Shown here piece after piece: positions 8,418 through 29,345 of a stretch of DNA of 35,934 bases. Numbering within the stretch: the stretch's first letter is position 1; each line of letters begins with the position of its first letter. Source of the stretch: Desulfobulbaceae bacterium (GTDB taxonomy: Bacteria; Desulfobacterota; Desulfobulbia; Desulfobulbales; Desulfobulbaceae). The DNA lies in NCBI GenBank assembly GCA_023544645.1, contig JAMJFO010000038.1:1-35934 (forward strand), read 5' to 3'. Position numbers and translations under genes: made by a program. Under the pieces are notes generated by a model. That model ran no database searches and was not told the DNA's origin. It saw only the letters and a program-made list of their open reading frames with translations.

Positions 8418-8707
8418 AAGAAATTTAGAATTATGAATGCAGAATGCAGAAGGACCATGCCTGAAGGGTGAGTTTAAAGTTATCATCAGTTTGCAGTTTG
8501 CAGTTTGCAGTTTGGAGTTTCCATCCTTTTGGCTAAGGTGCACAGCTTAGCTGTGAGTTGGCAGTCGTCAGTTTTCAGTTTTCAGTTTAGAGTTTCCAGC
8601 TTTTGGCTGTCAGATGACAGATGACAGAAGTCGCGATGCCCGTGGCAGCTGTCATCTCGAATGCATGTGAGAGATCTTTCCCTGTACGCATTAAGATATC
8701 TCCCGGA
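8418..8707 (-). repeat. Mosaic AACTG-family repeat, copy 1 (inverted relative to the copy at 24467-24727)
   Basis: The region 8418-8487 (ending near a CAGTTTG 7-bp periodic tract at 8487-8518), the hairpin around AGCTTTTGGCT, and the segment with GTCAGATGACAGATGACAG to GAGATCTTTCCCTGTACG all recur in reverse complement at 24467-24727. The element fills most of the gap between the pilA control region and the sensor kinase. No coding capacity is apparent. Confidence 0.85.
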
Positions 8708-24335: not shown

Positions 24336-24341
24336 ACAAGT

Positions 24342-24812
24342 TTGTAGTTGGCTGTTGGCTGTTTAAATTCAGCGGCCTTCGGCCGGAAACTTTAGACTGA
24401 AAACTGACGACTGCAAACTGCCAACTCCCGGCAAAGCCGGGTTCTCCTGTCATATCGACCAAAGGGAGATATCCTGGTACGTACAGGGAAAGATCTCTCA
24501 CATAGGTTCGAGATGACAGTTGCCAGGGGCATCGCGACTTCTGTCATCTGTCATCTGACAGCCAAAGGCTGGAAACTCTAAACTGACAACTGACAACTGA
24601 CGACTGCCAACTCACAGCAAAGCTGTTACCTCAGCCAAAAGGTTGGAAACTCCAAACTGATAACTTTAAACTCACCCTTCAGGCATGGTCCTTCTGCATT
24701 CTGCATTCATAATTCTAAATTTCTTCAAAGCCGGGTTCTCCTGTCATATCGACCATGAGGAGATATCTTGATGCGCAAAAAAATTCTCTCACATGCGCTG
24801 GAGATGACTCGG
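24342..24812 (+). repeat. Mosaic AACTG/CTGTCAT repeat block, copy 2
   Basis: Contains 7-bp periodic tracts (AAACTGA, CAACTGA, CGACTGC at 24393-24425 and 24577-24612), the hairpins GCGGCCTTCGGCCG and AGCCAAAGGCT, and two copies of a CCGGGTTCTCCTGTCATATCG unit (near 24437 and 24731). Each unit is followed by a GAGATATC and a TCTCACAT segment ending in GAGATGAC. Bases 24467-24727 are the inverted partner of 8418-8707. No gene. Confidence 0.85.
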
Positions 24813-26382: not shown

Positions 26383-26416
26383 TTTACATGATGTACTGTG
26401 CAGAACATGTGATTAT

Positions 26417-26547
26417 TAGTTAACAGTTATCAGTTGGCAGTTGGCAGTTTAGATTCAGCGGCCTTCGGCCGGAAACTTTAGACTGAAAACTGGGAACTGA
26501 TGACTGACGACTCGCGGCGCAGCCGTGCTGCCAACTGATAACTAACT
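26417..26547 (+). repeat. AACTG-family repeat, copy 3
   Basis: CAGTTATCAGTTGGCAGTT (7-bp period), then the hairpin GCGGCCTTCGGCCG, GAAACTTTAGACTGAAAACTG, and a closing tract that ends CTGCCAACTGATAACTAAC. The central part repeats 24365-24410 nearly exactly. The outer ends are inverted (AGTTATCAGTTGGCAG with CTGCCAACTGATAACT). It runs to within 16 bases of the aroB start. Confidence 0.88.
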
Positions 26548-26562
26548 TATTAAACAAAACAT

Positions 26563-27654
26563 ATGGAACATACCCCCCGAAAAATAGTCCAGGTCGGACT
26601 TGGCAACCGGACCTACCCAATCCTCATCCAATCAGGTGTTCTCCAGCTGATCGGCAGGGACCTGTTGCAGAGAAAGGTGGCCAAACGCTACGGGGTGATC
26701 AGCGATGACCATGTAGCCTCTCTCTACGGCGACCGGCTCATGGCATCACTTACTGAAGCAGGGCTGGCAGCCGAGCTGATCACCTTTCCCCGGGGCGAGA
26801 AAAATAAAAATCTTCAAACCATTGGTGCTCTTTCCAGTGAACTTGCGGCAAGAAACTTTGACCGCAAGGATGGATTGATCGCCCTTGGCGGCGGCGTGAC
26901 CGGGGACATCACCGGATTCCTGGCCTCGGTTTATATGCGCGGCATCCCCTTTGTCCAGGCGCCGACCACCCTGCTGGCCCAGGTGGACAGTTCGGTGGGC
27001 GGGAAAACCGGGGTCGATATTCCTGAAGGCAAGAACCTGGTAGGCACCTTTTATCAGCCCGCCGCGGTATATATCGACACCGATGCGTTGCAGACCCTGC
27101 CCGGTGAAGAGCTGCTGGGCGGCCTGGCAGAGGTGATCAAATACGGGATCATTGCCGACGCCGATTTTTTCCATTTCCTGGAGAATAACCGCGAGCCCAT
27201 CCTGGCCCTAGACAAACCGGTCATCACCGAAACCGTTGCCCGCTGCTGCGAAATCAAGGCCCGGGTCGTGGAACAGGACGAACGGGAAGGCGACCTGCGC
27301 CGCATTCTCAATTTCGGCCATACCATCGGCCATGCCATCGAGGCCGCCTCCGACTTCAAACTGATCCACGGCCTGGCCGTCGCCATGGGCATGTGCGCCG
27401 TTGTTCGTCTTGCCGTCCGCACAGGCTGCCTGGCAACGGAGGAAGCCGCCCGGATCATCAACCTTATACAGGCCTATGGCATGCCGGTGACCATCCCGGC
27501 GGAACTTGACCGGAACCGCATCAAGGGCTATCTGCTGACAGACAAGAAAACAGTGGGCGGCAGGGTCTTTTACGTCATCCCCAATCATATCGGTGAAGTA
27601 TTCATCACCGACCAGGTAGACGAATCCGATATAGATCAGGTTCTCAGGCTGTAG
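26563..27654 (+). CDS. aroB: 3-dehydroquinate synthase
   Basis: 363 residues, the usual length. It converts DAHP to 3-dehydroquinate in the shikimate pathway using NAD and a divalent metal. Visible: the glycine-rich GGGVTGDITGFLASVYMRGI, the PTTLLAQVDSSVGGKTGVD active-site block, NLVGTFYQP, and the metal ligands in GGLAEVIKYG (Glu), NFGHTIGHAIE (His) and IHGLAVAMGM (His). All key residues are present. A repeat replaces the expected leader and there is no visible ribosome binding site before the ATG. The last codons and stop run into a TTTTAGGG array. Confidence 0.95.
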   Translation: MEHTPRKIVQVGLGNRTYPILIQSGVLQLIGRDLLQRKVAKRYGVISDDHVASLYGDRLMASLTEAGLAAELITFPRGEKNKNLQTIGALSSELAARNFDRKDGLIALGGGVTGDITGFLASVYMRGIPFVQAPTTLLAQVDSSVGGKTGVDIPEGKNLVGTFYQPAAVYIDTDALQTLPGEELLGGLAEVIKYGIIADADFFHFLENNREPILALDKPVITETVARCCEIKARVVEQDEREGDLRRILNFGHTIGHAIEAASDFKLIHGLAVAMGMCAVVRLAVRTGCLATEEAARIINLIQAYGMPVTIPAELDRNRIKGYLLTDKKTVGGRVFYVIPNHIGEVFITDQVDESDIDQVLRL

Positions 27655-27687
27655 GGTTTTAGGGTTTTAGGGTTTTAGGCTGTTAGG
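27648..27687 (+). repeat. TTTTAGGG tandem array (left flank of the S23 gene)
   Basis: GGCTGTAGGG, then GTTTTAGG three times, then GGCTGTTAGG: an 8-bp period. It begins in the last codons of aroB and ends 9 bases before the S23 ATG, so the TTAGGA at its edge may serve as that gene's ribosome binding site. Confidence 0.9.
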
Positions 27688-27696
27688 AAAAAAGAT

Positions 27697-28059
27697 ATGC
27701 GCGACCACAAAAAGCTTAGAGCTTTTGAGCTGGCTGATGAAGTGGTTCTCTTGATCTATCAGCTTACGAGAGGGTTCCCCGATCAAGAAAGGTATGGATT
27801 GACTTCACAGATGAGAAGAGCGGCGGTTTCAGTACCATCAAACATTGTGGAAGGATGCGCTCGTCAAAGCCAGAGCGAGTATCTTCGCTTTCTTGAAATC
27901 GCATTCGGTTCCTTAAGAGAGTTGCATTACCAATTTGACCTGTCCATGCGCTTGGGGTATTCTAATGGGCATGACATGTCTCACTGTGAATCAAAAATCA
28001 TAGAGACAGAGAAAGTTTTGGGCGCTCTACTTCGATCAAGGCGAAAAAAATTAACTTAA
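27697..28059 (+). CDS. Four-helix-bundle protein, S23 / Avd-like family
   Basis: 120 residues. The family (23S rRNA intervening-sequence protein, TIGR02436-type) is shown by FELADEVVLLIYQLTRGFP, GLTSQMRRAAVSVPSNIVEGCAR, and EYLRFLEIAFGSLRELHYQF. These form a bundle of four amphipathic helices, and members assemble as barrel-like pentamers; the Avd relatives serve diversity-generating retroelements. The gene is not inside an rRNA, and no reverse transcriptase is present. It sits between two arrays with opposite strand sense, TTTTAGGG on the left and CCTAAAC on the right, between two unrelated genes. It is probably a dispersed genetic unit. Function unknown. Confidence 0.9.
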   Translation: MRDHKKLRAFELADEVVLLIYQLTRGFPDQERYGLTSQMRRAAVSVPSNIVEGCARQSQSEYLRFLEIAFGSLRELHYQFDLSMRLGYSNGHDMSHCESKIIETEKVLGALLRSRRKKLT

Positions 28060-28073
28060 TTGCATTTAATAAT

Positions 28074-28166
28074 CTAAAACCCAAATACCTATGCCCCTAA
28101 TGACCTAAACACCTAAACGCCTAAACTCCTAAGCACCTAAACTCCTAAGCACCTAAACACCTAAAA
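28074..28166 (+). repeat. CCTAAAC tandem array (right flank of the S23 gene)
   Basis: CTAAAACCC followed by about nine units of CCTAAxxN with a mostly 8-bp period (CCTAAACA, CCTAAACG, CCTAAACT, CCTAAGCA). It is the inverted counterpart of the left TTTTAGGG array and ends 2 bases before the fmdB-like ATG, leaving that gene without a visible Shine-Dalgarno. Confidence 0.9.
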
Positions 28167-28168
28167 AA

Positions 28169-28663
28169 ATGCCTATCTACGAATTCTTGTGCCCTGACTG
28201 CAACACCGTGTTCAACTTTTTTTCACGGCGGGTCAATACCGACAAGCAACCGAACTGTCCAAAATGCGGACGGAAGAAAATCCAGCGGCAGATGTCCACC
28301 TTTGCCACTATCGGCAAGGCCGGAGAAGCCGGCGAAGGCGATCCGTCAGACGCCATTGACGAAGCAAAAATGGAACAGGCCTTTGAGGGATTATTGCGGG
28401 AAGCGGAAAACGTCAACGAGGAAGACCCGCGGCAGATGGCAAACCTTATGCGCAGATTTTCAGACAGGACCGGGATTTCGCTGGGGGACAGAATGGAGGA
28501 GGCTTTGTCACGCCTGGAGGCCGGGGAGGACCCGGACAGCATTGAACAGGAGATGGGCGACCTCCTTGATGCTGATGAGGGTTTTACTCTGGAGCAGATG
28601 AAGAAAAAAGCGCTGGCCGGCTCCAGGCCGCCGGCTAAAGACGACAAACTCTATGAACTGTAG
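28169..28663 (+). CDS. FmdB-family zinc-ribbon protein
   Basis: 164 residues. The N-terminus is the FmdB/CxxC_CXXC_SSSS ribbon: MPIYEFLCPDCNTVFNFF with the second pair in NCPKCGRK, so one zinc is bound by CPDC and CPKC. After about residue 55 an acidic helical tail follows (EGDPSDAIDEAKMEQAFEG, EEDPRQMANLMRRFSDRTG). In Desulfobacterota such proteins are common and uncharacterised; a regulatory or metal-sensing role is a guess. The start directly abuts the CCTAAAC array. It is convergent with the next gene across a shared terminator. Confidence 0.85.
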   Translation: MPIYEFLCPDCNTVFNFFSRRVNTDKQPNCPKCGRKKIQRQMSTFATIGKAGEAGEGDPSDAIDEAKMEQAFEGLLREAENVNEEDPRQMANLMRRFSDRTGISLGDRMEEALSRLEAGEDPDSIEQEMGDLLDADEGFTLEQMKKKALAGSRPPAKDDKLYEL

Positions 28664-29185: not shown

Positions 29186-29345
29186 TGTCATCTGACAGCC
29201 AAAAGGCTGGAAACTCTAAACTGAAAACTGAAAACTGACGACTGCCAACTCACAGCAAAACTGTGTACCTCAGCCAAAGGCTGGAAACTCCAAACTGCCA
29301 ACTGCAAACTGATGACTGATGACTCCCGCCGAGGCGGGTTCCGTC
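29186..29345 (+). repeat. AACTG-family repeat, copy 4
   Basis: TGTCATCTGACAGCCAAAAG, then GGCTGGAAACTCTAAACTG, 7-bp units (AAAACTGA, CGACTGC), CAACTCACAGC, a second AGCCAAAGGCT hairpin and AAACTGATGACTGATGACT, ending in CCCGCCGAGGCGGG. It matches 24547-24660 closely in the same orientation. It fills the gap between the Met-rich gene's promoter region and the phosphoesterase 3' end. Confidence 0.88.

Follow-up and report, generated by a model that had tools for sequence, protein, structure and literature searches.

Within the window analysed here, a 35,934-nucleotide stretch of DNA from a Desulfobulbaceae bacterium, the gap between aroB and an fmdB-family gene is occupied by a unit of roughly 0.5 kb that consists of an S23 gene and two arrays of an 8-bp word (Table 1). 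The right arm is of the reverse-complement type of the left arm, and the G-rich strand of the left arm is directed at the S23 gene. The left array opens with the aroB stop codon (TAG, 27652–27654), which is thus supplied by the left arm. An earlier, sequence-only reading had described an S23 gene bracketed by inverted 8-bp arrays with no other gene between them, overlapping the aroB stop and touching the fmdB start. Tandem repeat (TRF) and profile (PF05635) searches confirm this description; fmdB begins 3 bp beyond the right array. The word TTTTAGG itself is not enriched, being seen 5 times in the window where 5.0 occurrences are expected by chance; the weight therefore rests on the arrangement and not on the word. 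In the predicted RNA fold the left arm is paired with the right one, with a weak folding z-score (-1.65), and an Rfam search around the unit gave no match.

Table 1 Features of the S23 unit and its host genes in the window.
Feature	Position	Strand	Basis
aroB (3-dehydroquinate synthase), upstream host gene	26563-27654	+	TIGR01357
Left arm, 8-bp array (TAGGGTTT)x4.5	27652-27687	+	TRF, period 8, 4.5 copies
S23 / four-helix-bundle gene (PF05635, TIGR02436), 120 aa	27697-28059	+	Profile matches
Right arm, 8-bp array (CTAAACAC)x11.6	28074-28165	+	TRF, period 8, 11.6 copies, 74% matches
fmdB-family zinc ribbon gene, downstream host gene	28169-28663	+	TIGR02605

S23/IVP genes are frequent in bacteria and are annotated merely as "four helix bundle protein". 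The protein encoded in the window clearly belongs to this family, matching PF05635 (E = 9.8e-33; 113 bits against a cut-off of 33.8) as well as TIGR02436 (109.6 bits, cut-off 24). The Avd model NF033474 gives 31 bits against a cut-off of 80, which indicates distant homology but not Avd membership, and no transposase family is matched. Two structures have been solved for the family (2GSC and 2RLD), of which 2GSC (Xcc0516) is the nearest. The dN/dS values of the window gene relative to orthologues in congeners are 0.07–0.10, and those for S23 in the congeners are 0.07–0.18, low enough to infer that the protein is kept by purifying selection.

The inverted score of an S23 locus was defined as the best local alignment between the upstream 350 bp and the reverse-complemented downstream 350 bp, and an inverted array pair was called at a score of at least 28. 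By this measure the window unit is modest, with a score of 28. S23 loci were sampled without regard to arrays, and a set of named GTDB loci was picked by protein similarity only. Among relatives and the phylum, 73% of 55 S23 loci reach the cut-off, compared to none of 28 fmdB-type control genes, none of 110 control positions within the same loci and 4.2% of 647 mismatched upstream/downstream pairs; for direct (non-inverted) similarity the figure is 20%. The named set, with 76 scorable loci out of 80 from many phyla, gives a very similar result, with inverted arrays at 74% of the loci vs. 2.7% and 1.6% for mismatched pairs and controls, respectively. The named loci span Bacteroidota, Acidobacteriota, Pseudomonadota, Nitrospirota, Thermodesulfobacteriota and others, including one ANME-1 archaeal contig, and since cultured isolates are among them the association does not stem from metagenome artefacts. 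Of 59 S23 loci in seven multi-copy genomes, 41 qualify. The association between S23 genes and inverted arrays is general and far beyond chance, and the outcome that would have spoken against the sequence-only reading, an absence of arrays from other S23 loci, did not occur. At about a quarter of S23 loci the arms are undetectable.

What differs from locus to locus is the repeat word, e.g. GGAGTCA, GTTGACGA, AGATTTG, GTGAATC or GTTTTAGG. The sole other S23 gene of the source genome (L001, C115:15526–15834) likewise has arms built on another, longer word, of the AAGTTTATC / AAGTTATCA type. For 93 clear loci, the detectable periods are 7 or 8, or derive from these as multiples or sums, apart from one of 17 and one of 22, while about half of the arms have no period above the cut-off. 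The orientation is very consistent, with the G-rich strand of each arm pointing inward in 90 of the 93 loci. Alignments between the two arms of a unit have 82% identity and a median length of 42 columns. G-U-compatible changes are not enriched among the arm mismatches (176 vs. 214), which gives no indication that an RNA stem is under selection; this is a weak test, with ambiguous repeat registers.

The units occupy the intergenic gaps of operons, mostly in the same direction as the genes, and begin at the upstream stop codon. Codirectional placement is found for 78% of S23 units vs. 59% of control triples (p 1e-4), and the arm starts at a median offset of -2 bp from the upstream stop codon, lying within 12 bp of it in 45 of 78 cases. 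Neighbours confirmed by profiles are sdhA-sdhB, fadB-fadA, fadA-fadE, rmlB-rmlA and groES-groEL. A target-site duplication could not be defined because the repetitive ends blur the junction, and none of the insertions seen was both recent and matched by a clean empty site.

Does the unit move as a whole? For loci without a common neighbour gene and with an S23 tree distance below 0.8, the word is common to 13 of 17 pairs, compared to 163 of 4400 distant S23 pairs (~4%; Fisher p ~1e-15, bearing in mind that pairs are not fully independent). In a repeat search of the flanking regions, covering 15 close pairs, two pairs had a 21–27-residue match on opposite sides only, and the rest had none. Within one genome, the word is shared in 3/3 scored pairs with S23 identity of at least 60%, vs. 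0–10% below 60%, and genome background is therefore not the cause of the shared word. Two loci on different contigs of one genome (L346 and L356) have 83% identity over ~500 bp covering only array, S23 gene and array, with unrelated flanks. In the S23 tree, a Mucilaginibacter gene located between sdhA and sdhB (L153) is sister to Pedobacter genes located between fadB and fadA (L142 and L146) and has the same word. Two Bacteroidota sister genes, in fadB-fadA (L143) and fadA-fadE (L175), share a word in neighbouring gaps of one operon. These data show that the arms belong to the unit, and that gene and arms co-occur at unrelated sites; transposition itself has not been observed. Since the word follows the S23 lineage and the copies are bounded by the arrays, we consider array, gene and array together as a mobile unit. 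This supports the proposal in the sequence-only reading of a mobile unit with its own terminal arrays.

The aroB-fmdB site adds to this picture. The five S23 genes of congeners at this site form one clade (support 100/100), and the gap is S23-free in the other, related genera examined (e.g. G007, G008, G013 and G017). In one congener (G001) both arms are present at the orthologous site and the S23 gene is absent. Evidence for coevolution of the arms at orthologous sites is mixed, being clear in several groups but not all, with a partly diagonal matrix for aroB-fmdB. Several same-site groups are polyphyletic in the S23 tree, so that same-site comparison alone is no proof of arm coevolution. As a separate observation, an array of a different word (ACACCTG) precedes fmdB in another congener (L205, G004:C52:1–30), where the contig ends.

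Could the arms be an RNA device only, i.e. a selected stem, cut by RNase III or regulatory, that protects the host operon or regulates the expression of S23, distributed by vertical inheritance and ordinary recombination? The codirectional operon location, the stem in the predicted fold, the vertical retention at aroB-fmdB and the precedent of RNase III excision in 23S rRNA intervening sequences (IVS; PMC4990558) would all be compatible with this. However, the arms lack a G-U bias, and same-word sister genes at unrelated sites together with copies that have unrelated flanks require movement of the whole unit. We consider this explanation unlikely.

Inverted arrays also occur without S23. In the source genome, same-word inverted pairs lacking the gene are present on contigs C129, C76 and C101 (short spacer), and the window carries array families of a different word than the S23 unit, whose derivation from S23 units has not been shown. 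The S23-less inverted pairs might be deletion derivatives of S23 units, again without their derivation having been shown. Arrays resembling the C129 element are seen at C140:7023–7277 of the source genome (L363 and L364). Two miniature repeats in the window (24340–24460 and 26410–26545) have a common core, CAGCGGCCTTCGGCCGGAAACTTTAGACTGAAAACTG; neither has an S23 gene, and each lies between inverted 7-bp arrays of the CAGTTGG / AACTGAC type. Three copies of another repeat, GTCATCTGACAGCC...GGCTGGAAACTCTAAACTG with heptamer arrays, lie between genes at 8480–8650 (inverted), 24540–24670 and 29188–29330. Genome-wide, the comparison of array density with S23 presence gives p 0.12 with N-runs counted; per 400 kb, there are 78 arrays in one rich S23-positive genome vs. 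2 in one S23-negative genome. Arrays without any S23 gene were the second outcome that would have counted against the sequence-only reading, and this was met to a small extent, at no fewer than three places in the genome, all of them inverted pairs.

S23-less arrays in the window and genome are also a point in favour of an "arrays first" explanation, in which slippage during replication and template switching at hairpins generate 7–8-bp intergenic arrays, where S23 genes merely settle or survive. Template switching could keep the arms alike without a protein, and the arms resemble DNA copies rather than RNA pairs. On the other hand, control genes and positions of the same genomes have inverted pairs in only 0–2% of cases, the word tracks the S23 lineage and not the genome, and the homology between copies takes in the arms. 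This explanation, too, appears unlikely.

The mobilising enzyme remains unidentified. Profile searches of the source genome found no RVT_1 at 1e-15 and no Y1_Tnp at 1e-8. A reverse transcriptase or a Y1 transposase was therefore rejected as a necessary partner, neither being found in this genome at these thresholds. A related alternative is a retroelement in which S23 acts like its homologue Avd of diversity-generating retroelements, with a reverse transcriptase provided in trans. The distant Avd homology described above would fit, as would the presence of reverse transcriptase in 40 of 99 S23-positive vs. 19 of 99 S23-negative genomes (genome size uncontrolled). Against it, the source genome is without RVT_1, and a genome with 14 S23 genes (G203) is not among the reverse transcriptase positives, making a retroelement very unlikely. 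S23 and Avd belong to the same four-helix-bundle superfamily, but S23 falls below the Avd cut-off and the system has neither a reverse transcriptase nor a template repeat, and thus does not qualify as a diversity-generating retroelement. The insertion at aroB-fmdB is an old one, so the enzyme could since have disappeared, or it could be a host repair enzyme.

How does the unit compare with known systems? The REP/RAYT-like relation between protein and repeat suggested by the sequence-only reading holds in part. As in RAYT/REPIN systems, one gene has flanking inverted repeats, and inverted pairs without the gene exist elsewhere in the genome, one S23-less same-word pair being at the orthologous site of a congener. 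The likeness fails in that S23 is not a Y1 transposase, the word is variable and not a fixed palindrome as in REP, and the genome is without Y1_Tnp. Foldback elements such as those of Drosophila (FB) and Galileo-like elements likewise have terminal inverted repeats built of short tandem repeats, but they are eukaryotic and far longer, Galileo encodes a P-type transposase, and no homology is claimed.

A close parallel exists with 23S rRNA IVS, whose origin has stayed unresolved for over 25 years (PMC4990558). The 428-nt Coxiella IVS contains an S23 ORF, a 28-bp terminal inverted repeat and GACAGAT heptamers of variable number, and is excised via RNase III; its S23p is unlikely to be produced in vivo (PMC4990558). 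The window unit resembles IVS of the Coxiella and Leptospira type in having an S23 ORF between complementary ends, inside a transcribed operon and with a similar size. The heptamers of variable copy number in the Coxiella arm are a further likeness. In addition, one of our S23 loci (L031) is situated in a 23S rRNA gene, at what we take to be, reading from the sequence, the known helix-45 site. The arms of this insert (CAGAAACCGGAACACAGAGGACAGAAG) are inverted repeats with a 7-bp spacing, and they have the same orientation as those of free-standing units. Unlike IVS, the window unit lies between protein genes and not in 23S or 16S rRNA, its free-standing protein is under strong purifying selection, the arrays that make up its arms are longer and have a lineage-specific word, and excision, which in IVS takes place via RNase III with no religation, is only inferred. 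Judging from the L031 arms and the published Coxiella IVS, 23S rRNA inserts look like a special case of the S23-array unit. This shared anatomy, together with the locus-to-locus word differences and the stop-codon placement in operons, had been missed in the sequence-only reading. S23 (23S_rRNA_IVP) genes have also been reported in cas loci, e.g. between cmr3 and cmr2 (PMC3936711); these could be operon-gap units of the same kind rather than CRISPR components. The open-access literature that we searched does not describe free-standing S23 genes as array-bracketed units (subscription papers and preprints were outside the search).

Taken together, the S23 gene and its inverted arrays of a lineage-specific 7–8-bp word likely form a compact mobile unit, a free-standing relative of the S23-coding IVS. 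In the mechanism that we propose, the unit would be co-transcribed with the host operon, and the arms would fold into a long stem that is trimmed in the way RNase III cuts that of IVS, which would let host genes tolerate the unit. The S23 pentamer may bind the folded nucleic acid and aid reinsertion by a host or trans-acting enzyme. The ends would be recognised by fold and not by a fixed sequence, which would allow the word to drift while both arms stay alike. A bolder reading, for which we see the arguments as balanced, is that S23-array units are a widespread class of mobile element without a transposase, whose ends are drifting 7–8-bp inverted arrays recognised by fold, and that 23S rRNA IVS and the S23 genes of cas operons are the same element. 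If each S23 gene belongs to a mobile, array-bracketed unit, there would be one explanation for the free-standing genes and for the origin of 23S rRNA IVS, and the same explanation would extend to a class of short intergenic repeat arrays as well as to the S23 genes reported from cas operons (PMC3936711). A new question would then arise, namely how a mobile unit keeps its ends alike while their sequence shifts between lineages, without a recognisable recombinase.
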